A stretch of DNA of 46,418 nt from Rhizobiales bacterium CCH10-E5 (lineage in GTDB: Bacteria > Pseudomonadota > Alphaproteobacteria > Rhizobiales > Beijerinckiaceae), in the NCBI GenBank assembly GCA_001556125.1, contig LSIG01000103.1:1-46418 (forward strand), written 5' to 3'. Below the pieces are notes generated by a model, which was not told the DNA's origin, made no database searches, and saw nothing but the letters and a program-made list of their open reading frames with translations. The position numbers and the translations under genes were made by a program. How positions within the stretch are numbered: position 1 is the stretch's first letter; every line of letters starts with the position of its first letter. Positions 9,195 through 46,376 of this stretch are shown piece after piece.

Positions 9195-9271
9195 CGTCAT
9201 TGCGAGCGCAGCGAAGCAATCCAGAGCCACGCGCACGCTTTCTGGATTGCTTCGCTGCGCTCGCAATGACG
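9195..9271. repeat. Palindromic repeat, family A
   Basis: A 77-bp interrupted palindrome with outer arms CGTCATTGCGAGCGCAGCGA and its complement, around a short unique centre. It lies between two convergent genes and could fold as a long hairpin in either transcript. Other family-A copies are at 26336-26425 (inside a gene) and 46288-46368. Confidence 0.9.
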
Positions 9272-11794: not shown

Positions 11795-11896
11795 GGTCGT
11801 CCCGGGCGCAGCGAAGCGAAGACCCGGGACCCATTCCGGAACGGTTCAGGCATGGGTCCCGGATCGGCGCCGCTGACGCGGCTTGTCCGGGATGAC
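11795..11896. repeat. Palindromic repeat, family D (diverged copy)
   Basis: A 102-bp interrupted palindrome that starts GTCGTCCCGGGCGCAGCGAA and ends in a complementary TGTCCGGGATGAC, with an inner GACCCGGGACC / GGTCCCGGATC pair. It lies between the IclR regulator gene and the acyl-CoA ligase gene on the same strand. It resembles the family D copies at 21040-21146 and 27287-27433 but is the most diverged. Confidence 0.75.
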
Positions 11897-16046: not shown

Positions 16047-16123
16047 CGTCATTCTCGGGCGAAGCGCAGCGCAGACCCGAGAATCTCCAGCAGGAGATGC
16101 TCGGGTCGAGCCCGAGCATGACG
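16047..16123. repeat. Palindromic repeat, family B
   Basis: A double hairpin. GTCATTCTCGGGCGAAGCGC and ACCCGAGAATC form one arm set, and ATGCTCGGGTCGAGCCCGAG then CATGAC the other, so the outer ends also pair. It lies between dctP and the SDR gene, ending 34 bases before the SDR start. Very similar copies are at 24136-24211, 28325-28414 and 39128-39205. Confidence 0.9.
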
Positions 16124-21039: not shown

Positions 21040-21146
21040 CGTCATTCCGGACAAGCCGCGCCAGCGGCGCCGCTCCGGAATCCATCGTAGAGTACAGAGC
21101 CCCCCAATGGATTCCGGGCCTCCGCTTCGCTCCGCCCGGAATGACG
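21040..21146. repeat. Palindromic repeat, family D
   Basis: A 107-bp element with ends GTCATTCCGG and CCGGAATGAC and inner arms CCGGAATCCAT and ATGGATTCCGG. It lies between iolC and iolD, ending 41 bases before the iolD start. Related copies are at 27287-27433 and, more diverged, 11795-11896. Confidence 0.9.
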
Positions 21147-23035: not shown

Positions 23036-23042
23036 GCGCCGG

Positions 23043-23192
23043 GAACCCCTCTCCTGTAAGGAGAGGGGCAGGGGTGAGGTGCTGGCCCCCGGACCCGTTC
23101 GCACCCCCTCACCGCAGCCGGCGGTGAGGGCACGAATAAGACGTCCGGCGGCCGACCCCTCACCCTGCCCTCTCCCTACGGGAGAGGGTTCC
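23043..23192. repeat. Palindromic repeat, family E
   Basis: A 150-bp element built of nested palindromes. CCCTCTCC-TGTAA-GGAGAGGG is at the left end and CCCTCTCC-CTACG-GGAGAGGG at the right. CAGGGGTGAGG and CCTCACCCTG pair across the element, and a central CCCTCACCGC-GCGGTGAGGG hairpin lies between. It lies between iolD and iolE. It is the only family E copy in the window. Confidence 0.9.
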
Positions 23193-23243
23193 CCGCGCCC
23201 GATCCCATCACCCTGAGCCTGAAGACCCTCGAGGACCCCACAC

Positions 23244-24128: not shown

Positions 24129-24135
24129 CGACAGC

Positions 24136-24211
24136 GTCATTCTCGGGCGAAGCGCAGCGCAGACCCGAGAATCTCTTGCAGGAGATGCTCGGGTCGAGCC
24201 CGAGCATGACG
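24136..24211. repeat. Palindromic repeat, family B
   Basis: A near-identical copy of the element at 16047-16123, in the same orientation, between iolE and iolB. It starts 7 bases after the iolE stop and ends 21 bases before the iolB start, so its hairpins lie next to the iolB ribosome site. Confidence 0.9.
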
Positions 24212-25517: not shown

Positions 25518-27257
25518 CTAGCGGGCGGTCGGCCCGCCGAGATGCAGCACGGCGTCGAGCAGCGTGCGCGCATAGTCCGTCTGCGGCGCGGCGAAGAGCG
25601 AGAGGCTCTCGCCCTGCTCGACGATCCGCCCGTTCTGCATCACCACGGTGCGCTCGCACATCATCCGCACGACGTTGAGATCATGGCTGACGAAGAGCAG
25701 CGCCAGATCATCCTCGCGCCGCAGCCGGTCGAGCAGTTGCAGGATCACCGCCTGCACGGAGACGTCGAGCGCCGCCGTCGGCTCGTCGAGGATCAGGAGC
25801 CGCGGCCGGCAGGCAATGGCGCGCGCGATGCCGACACGCGCCTTCTGGCCGCCCGAGAGCTGGTGCGGGAAGCGCTCCAGCAGGCTGCTCGGCAAGCCGG
25901 CGCGCTCGGCGCATTCGCTGACGCGGGCGGTCAGCGCCGCCCCGTCCTTCATGTTGAGCAGCCGGCGCAGCGGATGGGCGATGCAGTCGAAGGCGTTGAA
26001 GCGCGGATTGAGGCTGTCGGTCGGGTCCTGGAAGACGATCTGGATGTCCTTGCGCAGCGGCGAGCGGTGAAAGTCGCGCGCGGCTTGAGTCCCGATCGCC
26101 TGCCCGTCGAACAGGATCTCGCCCTCGCTGGCGTCGATCAGCCGGCAGACCAGCCGTGAGATCGTGCTCTTGCCCGAGCCGGATTCACCGACGAGGCCGA
26201 GGCTCTCGCCGGCCCGGATCGCGAAGGAGACGTCGTTCACCGCGACGACGCCGCGGTCATAGCGCTTCACCAGGTTCTGGACCTCGAGCAGCAGCGGCGT
26301 GCCGGGGGCGGGCCTGTTCGCGGACTGCTCCTCGCCGTCATTGCGAGCGGAGCGAAGCAATCCAGCCAGGCTCGGCGCCCCTTCCCCCTGGATTGCTTCG
26401 TCGGCTGCGCCTCCTCGCAATGACGACGGCGCCAGATCGGCGATCGTCGAGGTCGCTGTCGGGGAGGCTGCGACCAGGCGCTTGGTGTAGGGGTGCTGCG
26501 GCGCGCTGAACAGGGACAGCGGCTGCGCCTCCTCGACGACCTTGCCCTGCTCCATCACGCAGACGCGCTGGCAGTAGCGCGAGGCCAGCCCGAGGTCGTG
26601 CGTGATCAGGATCATCGCCATGCCGCGCTCGGCGGTGATCTGCGACAGCAGGTCCATCACCGTCTTCTGCGTGGTGACGTCGAGCCCCGTCGTCGGCTCG
26701 TCGGCGATCAGCAGCTTGGGTGCGCAGGCGATCGCCATCGCGATCATGACGCGCTGGCACATGCCGCCCGAGAGCTCGTGCGGATAGGCGTCGAGCCGCT
26801 TTTCGGGCTCGCGGATCAGCACCGCCTTGAGCAGCTCGAGCGCCCGCGCCCGGCCCTCGCCCGGCGAGATCGGCTCATGCGCCATGATCGCGTCCGCGAT
26901 CTGCTGGCCGACCGTGCGGATCGGGTTCAGCGCGCCGCGCGGATTCTGGAAGATCATCGAGATCGCCGCGCCATGCAGGCGGCGCAGCTGCTTCGAAGAC
27001 GCCGTGGTGATGTCCTCGCCGGCGAAGCGGATGCTCCCCTGGCTGACCCGGCCCGACGCATCGAGCAGCCGCGTCACCGCGAACGCCGTCACCGATTTGC
27101 CCGAACCGCTCTCGCCGACGACGCCGAGCGTCTCGCCCGCCGCGACGCAGAAGGACACGCCGCGCACCGCCTCGACCAGCCCGCGCCGCGTCGAAAAGGT
27201 GACGTGCAGATCGTCGATGGCGAGGAGGGGGGCGGTGCTGGCAGGCATAGTGTTCAT
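25518..27257 (-). CDS. Peptide-type ABC transporter, fused dual ATPase with repeat-encoded linker
   Basis: A 579-residue protein with two nucleotide-binding domains, equivalent to DppD plus DppF or to YejF/GsiA. Each half has a Walker A (GESGSGKS, about 48-55 and again near 352), an ABC signature (LSGGM, LSGGQ) and a Walker B (LLIADEPT, LLILDEPT). Residues ~278-307 between the halves are encoded by a complete 90-bp palindromic repeat, which keeps the frame open and explains a length above the usual ~540. The ATG at 27257 is chosen; an upstream start at 27302 lies in another repeat. It belongs with the two permeases and the binding protein upstream on the same strand. Confidence 0.92.
   Translation of the reverse strand: MNTMPASTAPLLAIDDLHVTFSTRRGLVEAVRGVSFCVAAGETLGVVGESGSGKSVTAFAVTRLLDASGRVSQGSIRFAGEDITTASSKQLRRLHGAAISMIFQNPRGALNPIRTVGQQIADAIMAHEPISPGEGRARALELLKAVLIREPEKRLDAYPHELSGGMCQRVMIAMAIACAPKLLIADEPTTGLDVTTQKTVMDLLSQITAERGMAMILITHDLGLASRYCQRVCVMEQGKVVEEAQPLSLFSAPQHPYTKRLVAASPTATSTIADLAPSSLRGGAADEAIQGEGAPSLAGLLRSARNDGEEQSANRPAPGTPLLLEVQNLVKRYDRGVVAVNDVSFAIRAGESLGLVGESGSGKSTISRLVCRLIDASEGEILFDGQAIGTQAARDFHRSPLRKDIQIVFQDPTDSLNPRFNAFDCIAHPLRRLLNMKDGAALTARVSECAERAGLPSSLLERFPHQLSGGQKARVGIARAIACRPRLLILDEPTAALDVSVQAVILQLLDRLRREDDLALLFVSHDLNVVRMMCERTVVMQNGRIVEQGESLSLFAAPQTDYARTLLDAVLHLGGPTAR
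26336..26425. repeat. Palindromic repeat, family A, inside the ABC ATPase gene
   Basis: A 90-bp family A element (left arm CGTCATTGCGAGCGGAGCGA, right end CTCGCAATGACG) lying wholly within a coding region, exactly 30 codons long and free of stops in the gene's frame. It encodes SSLRGGAADEAIQ at its start and GLLRSARND at its end, between the two ATPase domains. The right arm is the longer variant with TCGTCGGCTGCGCCTC. Confidence 0.92.
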
Positions 27258-27286
27258 GGTCTCGCGCCCGTGGCTCGGACCCTCTT

Positions 27287-27433
27287 CGTCATTCCGGGGC
27301 ATCGCGAAGCGATGAGCCCGGAACCCAGAACCGATGCCGGCTGGGCAGGAGGCGAAGCACGTCCCGTCATTTCCGCTTAAAGCCTGAGGTTCTGGGTTCC
27401 GGGCTCGCCCCTTCGGGCCGCCCCGGAATGACG
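27287..27433. repeat. Palindromic repeat, family D (long copy)
   Basis: A 147-bp element with ends CGTCATTCCGGGGC and CCCCGGAATGACG and inner arms CCCGGAACCCAGAACC and GGTTCTGGGTTCCGGG. It lies between the permease gene at 27459 and the ATPase gene, ending 29 bases before the ATPase start in the direction of transcription. Confidence 0.9.
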
Positions 27434-27458
27434 GAGAGGTTCCGGCATGAAACGACCA

Positions 27459-28307: not shown

Positions 28308-28324
28308 GAGATGGCTCCTCCCCT

Positions 28325-28414
28325 GTCATTCTCGGGCGAAGCGAAGCGCAGACCCGAGACTCTCAACGAGGAGAGGCTCGTTTCCGAGATGGTCGGGTCA
28401 AGCCCGACCATGAC
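28325..28414. repeat. Palindromic repeat, family B
   Basis: A 90-bp copy related to 16047-16123 and 24136-24211, with GTCATTCTCGGGCGAAGCGA at one end and GACCATGAC at the other. It sits 17 bases upstream of the DppC-like gene start, in the opposite orientation relative to transcription compared with the copy before iolB. Confidence 0.88.
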
Positions 28415-39127: not shown

Positions 39128-39205
39128 CGTCATTCTCGGGCGGAGCGAAGCGGAGACCAGAGACACTCTTGCAGGAGATGCTCGGGTCAAGGCCCGGGCA
39201 TGACG
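39128..39205. repeat. Palindromic repeat, family B (diverged copy)
   Basis: A 78-bp copy with CGTCATTCTCGGGCGGAGCG at one end and CCCGGGCATGACG at the other. The inner GACCCGAGAAT of other copies reads GACCAGAGACA here, so the first hairpin is weakened. It lies between the convergent antiporter and DUF3830 genes. Confidence 0.85.
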
Positions 39206-46279: not shown

Positions 46280-46287
46280 CGGCTCGC

Positions 46288-46368
46288 CGTCATTGCGAGC
46301 GTAGCGAAGCAATCCAGAGCCGCAGCGCTCGACGTCCCCTGGATTGCTTCGCTACGCTCGCAATGACG
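46288..46368. repeat. Palindromic repeat, family A
   Basis: An 81-bp copy with arms CGTCATTGCGAGCGTAGCGA and its exact complement at the right end. It lies directly after kup, starting 9 bases after the stop, between convergent genes. The compensating base (T here, C at 9195) is matched on the other arm, so pairing is kept in each copy. Confidence 0.92.
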
Positions 46369-46376
46369 GCCTAAAG

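Follow-up and report, generated by a model that had tools for sequence, protein, structure and literature searches.

Rickettsia palindromic elements (RPEs) are dispersed palindromes of about 100 bp which, according to the accessible parts of two reports, lie in frame in conserved genes (PMC3767692, PMC2229807). The gmk product carrying an RPE is described in the available text of the second report as translated and active (PMC2229807). The accessible portion of the first leaves open whether an RPE site attracts different insertions as a hotspot or holds one insert that has diverged (PMC3767692). Another described group, the CGTC-tagged REPs, is presented in the available part of Di Nocera et al. 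2013 (PMC3733652) as predominantly alphaproteobacterial and mostly intergenic, with some copies inside genes. By definition they have a stem of 8 or 9 bp and a loop of 4-5 nt; they occur predominantly as HH dimers, often form inverted pairs foldable as one large hairpin, and have no known dedicated transposase. According to the same partial text, recB carries different REPs at nearly the same position in two Xanthomonas species, and REP pairs with unequal partners may escape hairpin clearance (PMC3733652). In-frame palindromes as a kind are already known from Rickettsia and from CGTC/GTAG REPs. In E. coli, Bachellier and co-workers reportedly found that intergenic BIME sites vary between strains, by excision or by insertion of other repeats. 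Those sites are intergenic, whereas the Bosea palindromes analysed here also lie inside a protein. The new part is the presence of unrelated, swappable palindromes in one protein tether, together with sites that appear to outlast their occupants. Among the literature matches listed, which covered few subscription papers, we found no description of multi-family occupancy of one protein tether combined with swapping in place.

The window is the whole stretch of 46,418 nt that was analysed, from a Bosea-like alphaproteobacterium. Genomes, DNA loci and homologous proteins are labelled G, L and P, respectively, and G001 is the nearest genome compared with the window. The minus strand at positions 25518-27257 encodes a fused ABC ATPase of 579 aa with a NikD-like and a NikE-like half, assigned by NCBIfam, Pfam and its open frame. 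The protein scores above the cut-off for both TIGR02770 and TIGR02769 (NCBIfam). The Pfam analysis revealed two ABC_tran stretches and oligo_HPY at residues 256-288 of 594, the numbering of the longer open frame (25518-27302) that starts at the first ATG. We favour the 579-aa start, since the ATG upstream of it (27302) lies inside another palindrome, at 27276-27444. A family A palindromic element (state A1) occupies positions 26336-26425, inside the gene. It is exactly 90 nt long and consists of a 30-nt short arm (26336-26365, plus strand) with the uncommon middle CGGAGC, a 22-nt loop (26366-26387), and a 38-nt long arm (26388-26425, minus strand) with the rare middle GAGGCGCAGCCGAC. In the protein it corresponds to residues 293-322 in the 594 numbering and to residues 278-307 in the 579 numbering. 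In an AlphaFold model based on an alignment of 50 sequences (mean pLDDT 82.3), residues 294-330 in the 594 numbering had a pLDDT below 50, which places the element in a predicted disordered tether. On the gene strand, its predicted fold has an energy of -50.1 kcal/mol (z = -4.8), and 0/200 shuffles were as low. An insert of identical type is present in G001 and in eight more listed homologues (P0002-P0009), some of which may represent one genome.

These data agree with the original prediction, which placed a whole, stop-free copy of a dispersed palindrome in frame between two ATPase domains at the same residues, and described it as a family A element matching the copies at 9195-9271 and 46288-46368, as its arms do. 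Two of the three frames on each strand of the element are free of stops, so a copy with a length divisible by three survives readily in a tolerant stretch. The open frame through the element is a low bar and unremarkable. As a possible artefact, a frameshift or an assembly error could have joined two separate genes. Many genomes and proteins in which the two halves form one open frame, linker included, contradict this explanation; we found no point in its favour, and its probability is negligible.

The tether element resembles RPEs in its mode of insertion. It is also a palindrome in frame in a conserved gene, at an exposed or flexible part of the product, and the Rickettsia parallel drawn at the outset is apt. 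In the Bosea tether, the occupants A, B and C show no sequence relation, and A is found in both orientations. The two hosts also differ in lifestyle, Rickettsia being obligate intracellular and Bosea not. Several features of the CGTC-tagged REPs are also present. As in that group, the units are often arranged as inverted pairs foldable into one large hairpin, and most copies lie between genes. Both family A arms begin with CGTC, which is unpaired in single-unit folds; the first two stem pairs are A-T (the stem begins AT and ends AT); and the arms end in ATCCAG, with CCAG unpaired, which provides the CCA tail. The 39 two-armed family A elements counted in the G001 flanks carry their CGTC tags outward. 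The stem differs, because a unit stem of 5 + 2 bp with an internal loop and a 3-nt loop is predicted, and 5 + 1 + 3 for the long arm, versus the 8-9 bp of CGTC-tagged REPs. The arms of the window element are unequal, like the unequal REP pairs in the available text of PMC3733652; systematic swapping in place was not found in that text. The claim that this family had no description in the group can be kept only in part: CGTC-tagged palindromes, alphaproteobacterial and in some cases inside genes, are described in the accessible text (PMC3733652), and family A fits them only partly.

The occupancy of the tether was compared in homologues, of which 120 were listed among the 7995 past the threshold. 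A tree that disregarded the linker took in 92 of the 120. The remaining P0093-P0120 were left out of the tree, and no element was noticed in their linkers, some of which were missed by the search motif. By protein motif, no element was recognised in 37 of the 92 listed homologues, and the others had B (25), A (15), A reversed (6), D (4), E (3) or C (2). The tree requires no fewer than 28 state changes, a figure that is not a count of insertions because the branches are short and only 19/83 inner branches are starred. At the DNA level, family A is found in L001, L008 and L009 in addition to the window, and reversed in L036 and L170, whose sequences are identical. Family B is present in L002, L003, L005-L007, L169 and L171, with a shortened copy in L004 and a remnant in L168. 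L043 carries a C type, L172 a decayed D-like hairpin, and L010-L013 and L173 are free of elements. Families D and E, known mostly from protein, are putative palindromes there, and the hairpin of L172 is the sole DNA of family D. Parts of the C type of L043 recur elsewhere in the same genome, with 98% over 43 nt in the best case. Pairwise local alignments of A, B, C and F were no better than those of shuffled sequences (68-208 of 300 shuffles scored as high). A single diverged ancestral insert cannot explain a tether that is occupied by unrelated palindromes, one of which is found in either orientation. In the linker of P0014, family A is reversed and one of its arms contains additional residues, perhaps a further small insertion. 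The length of the longest inverted repeat separates element-bearing linkers poorly (16 in L001, 14 in L010) and was not used. An Rfam search with seven loci gave three sub-threshold matches to eukaryotic microRNAs, which were taken as chance.

A match at E <= 1e-200 was found in 19 of the 67 Bosea genomes, and 13 of these 19 carry A or B in the tether (one as a remnant, one shortened); L172, with its D-like hairpin, was counted among the other six. Of 40 paralogous fused-ATPase loci, picked non-randomly from a match list, 39 had readable linkers and one of these (L191) carries an A or B element. The difference between 13/19 and 1/39 gave a Fisher p of 1e-7 for strains that are related. In this exception, from G005, the linker element belongs to family B. 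Three matches to paralogous fused ATPases each contain one TGA (G001:C2:3792559-3794283, G015:C44:135225-136937 and G011:C13:934127-935827). All four A-type tethers are in genomes with more A than B; B-type tethers are in genomes with more B than A in 6/9 cases and not in 3/9. A link between the state of the tether and the commoner family of the genome is suggestive only (one-sided Fisher p 0.049, strains non-independent), and the family A count of G001 in this test came from a narrower pattern than that of the other genomes.

The original prediction described the element as exapted and named repeat-free orthologues with the same linker residues as the observation that would count against it. 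The linkers of orthologues without a repeat are in fact shorter and consist of other residues, 24 of them in some close relatives, so this objection does not arise. The word exapted itself is not supported, in that close relatives carry another, unrelated palindrome at this place, family A in reverse, or no palindrome at all, and any role is putative. Selection of the 30 added residues as an improvement of the fused transporter would agree with the linker lengths, which are multiples of three in 19/19 loci compared, and with the retention of the insert in several lineages. An open frame is predicted equally by selection on the second ATPase domain alone, the segment is predicted to be disordered, and nearly identical domains in relatives are joined by unrelated residues or by the 24-residue linker. 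We regard such exaptation as very improbable. Judged from these sequences, the tether reads as a tolerated, replaceable parking place for palindromes and not as a part made useful, with its role remaining putative.

The explanation that we consider probable is that a dispersed REP-like palindrome landed in the disordered tether of a NikDE-like protein and was kept as an open insert with a length divisible by three, tolerated and not exapted. A copy would have inserted between the two ATPase domains, and it would have been kept because both domains were still made. New states of the tether may have arisen by insertion and loss, aided by recombination between alleles, and the tether would be one more swap site like the intergenic ones. 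The family A allele of the four loci would go back to one old insertion with its arms preserved at the nucleotide level.

Evidence on this turnover and on the share of recombination in it came from about 1480 nt of flanking sequence. L001 (A) and L005 (B) have a flank identity of 0.9595, as do L008 (A) and L010 (none), against 0.9432 for the window and L001, both with A; different states can thus lie between flanks that are 96% identical. The A alleles of the window and L001 have both junctions in common, the four B loci L169, L003, L005 and L002 have a related left spacer, and these A and B alleles interleave on the flank tree. Such sharing and interleaving may mean that recombination explains many of the 28 state changes, and the sequences point to it as a serious part of the turnover. 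In its strongest form, this account holds that A, A reversed, B and the empty state arose once each and were shuffled through the conserved ATPase domains. It also agrees with the confinement of the rare A haplotype, described below, to the tether among genomes with a match at E <= 1e-200. Against it, bins of 200 columns revealed no clear rise of same-allele identity beside the tether, where differences of 0.01-0.02 are below the resolution. The sequence immediately to the right of the element differs among the window, L008 and L009, the tether B copies have three different inner hairpins, and the C and D-like occupants are left unexplained. Few insertions with much shuffling are a possible account, which we hold with low confidence.

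The four A tethers (window, L001, L008 and L009) have a rare arm haplotype in common. With one variable position allowed, a search of 67 Bosea genomes found five copies of it, three in this tether and two elsewhere (G013 and G087). The latter two are apparently between genes, and neither genome has a match at E <= 1e-200, so that among genomes with such a match the haplotype is found in the tether only. The core arms differ at 0/46 positions in every pair of the four loci and the arm middles at 0-2/20, whereas four-fold flank sites differ by 15-35%; the loop sequences vary, and in part so do the loop lengths. In three distant pairs, four-fold codons ending in A or T were changed in 7/7, 6/7 and 18/20 cases in the flanks, versus 0/8, 0/7 and 0/7 in the arms (counted by eye). 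Arm residues are changed in P0043 and P0044, known as protein only, which goes against arm conservation. These comparisons suggest that a single old insertion gave rise to the family A allele of the four loci and that its arms have been preserved as nucleotide sequence; as a less preferred alternative, the rare haplotype arrived later and separately in each lineage. Two points weigh against the account of a tolerated insert. If the A allele is old, the B and empty states of sister strains require its loss, and the conservation of the arms at synonymous sites is more than pure tolerance predicts. The two intergenic A copies, compared between the window and G001, differ at 1/166 nt, versus 44/288 four-fold flank sites, so what is conserved is the element as such and not just its copy in the ATPase gene.

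An alternative is that the hairpin itself is selected in mRNA or DNA, for slower translation at the domain boundary or for mRNA stability, with any palindrome family serving. Its support comes from arms unchanged at synonymous sites and rare A/T-ending codons beside diverged flanks, from intergenic copies that are equally kept, from the strong predicted fold of the element, and from different families at one place that all give a hairpin. Even the element-free linker of L013 is predicted to fold at -57.7 kcal/mol over 90 nt, and in L002, L006 and L007 three to four pairs of one B inner hairpin were changed on both sides with pairing kept. However, the element-free L010, L011 and L012 fold weakly (-22 to -35 kcal/mol), being also shorter, and 38/39 paralogous linkers lack a recognised element. 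In addition, five of the six other tether B copies have one to three broken pairs relative to L171, and conservation that is shared with intergenic copies is not specific to the ATPase gene. Selection for a hairpin at the domain boundary is unlikely in our assessment, and a tolerated insert is the reading that we retain.

The palindromes between genes were compared in 13 stretches over 46 kb of synteny between the window and G001. The kind of element agrees between the two genomes at 9195, 17025, the tether, 29495 and 46286. At the same G001 sites, the intergenic family A copy at 9195-9271 is identical (77/77 nt), and that at 46288-46368 is identical at 88/89 nt over 46284-46372. Six stretches have another kind in G001. 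Family F palindromes (CGTCATTCTCGGGC) occupy 16047-16123 (intergenic), 24135-24211, 28324-28400 and 39128-39204 of the window, where G001 has, respectively, family A, a CCGG-type palindrome, a CCGG-type palindrome with family A nested in its loop, and a CCGG-type palindrome. A C-type palindrome between genes at 23040-23230 corresponds to family A in G001, and the palindrome at 27276-27444, which separates the ATPase gene from the next upstream frame, is of CCGG type in both genomes with a different make. The stretch at 21041 differs in its variant, and that at 11830 had weak anchors. The family B core word CCTCATCCTGAG was not found in positions 1-46418 of the window with up to one mismatch; G001 has 58 B arm hits.

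A comparison of G001 with G085 over about 200 kb gave a similar picture. At 25 scored G001 sites, G085 has another family in 12, the same in 5, an unrecognised insert in 5, and nothing in 3. One of the five unrecognised stretches (58-117 nt) is the tether, with the B remnant of G085, and the others may be diverged copies. From the G085 side, 24 sites, largely the same ones, were scored as same (5), different (13), unrecognised (2) or empty (4). The scoring relied on seed words, with C-type seed hits omitted as mostly short and likely false, and it excluded four G001 and five G085 sites for which collinear anchors were lacking. Since the seed families are broad (one lumps CCGG-type palindromes), the class "same" is if anything overstated. 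We take these data as a sign that palindrome sites in Bosea outlast their occupants. A similar picture would result if permissive sites were saturated and gained and lost elements independently and fast, so coupled replacement is not proven. A tentative extension, to which we give limited credence, is that the sites are lasting and their occupants are swapped in place for unrelated families and seldom left empty, with arms kept even if translated with rare codons and the tether as one of few sites inside proteins. An active process, either hairpin-directed exchange or repair or selection for any hairpin, would then maintain them.

The original prediction also proposed a search for further in-frame copies in the genome and a test for linker preference. 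In G001, 3/59 family A and 1/39 family B clusters, 4/98 in total, are open within one gene; of the four, the ATPase copy lies in an interdomain tether. The count used exact seed patterns, so degenerate copies were missed. Frames were assigned with a coding-frame model that learned first from ATPase genes whose frame is known and next from the genes that it called itself; the best frame was right in 459/469 segments, a self-consistency figure. The four genes are this ATPase and CobN-like, CobG-like and XdhA-like genes. Family A is in frame in the CobN-like cobaltochelatase gene (L123, ~1492-1572; residues 477-503 of the 1000 read) and in the CobG-like gene about 2.5 kb from it (L122, ~1525-1605). 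The family B copy of the XdhA-like gene (L229, ~1479-1580; residues 341-375) directly follows the first of two stretches that match an FAD-binding domain.

Copy numbers differ widely, with 0-243 family A and 0-178 family B arm hits per genome (21 genomes counted for each family). A search for the Y1 transposase (PF01797) in 20 genomes gave no match in 16, G001 included, and matches in 4. A RAYT-type Y1 enzyme as the mover is unsupported on this count. G020:C1:3105870-3106888 holds three adjacent matches to the Y1 transposase, one of which contains a stop. In G001, family A was also found in the loop of another palindrome (L162, ~3498) whose outer arms match exactly over 22 nt. Such nesting was seen around 1/58 two-armed elements, and insertion of palindromes into the loops of palindromes was rejected as a general route.

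The tether bears on the question raised for Rickettsia in the accessible part of PMC3767692, whether such a site is a hotspot or holds one diverged insert. The set of Bosea strains lets the gain, loss and swapping of protein-coding palindromes be followed, and the synonymous sites in the arms provide a test of whether DNA, RNA or peptide is kept.
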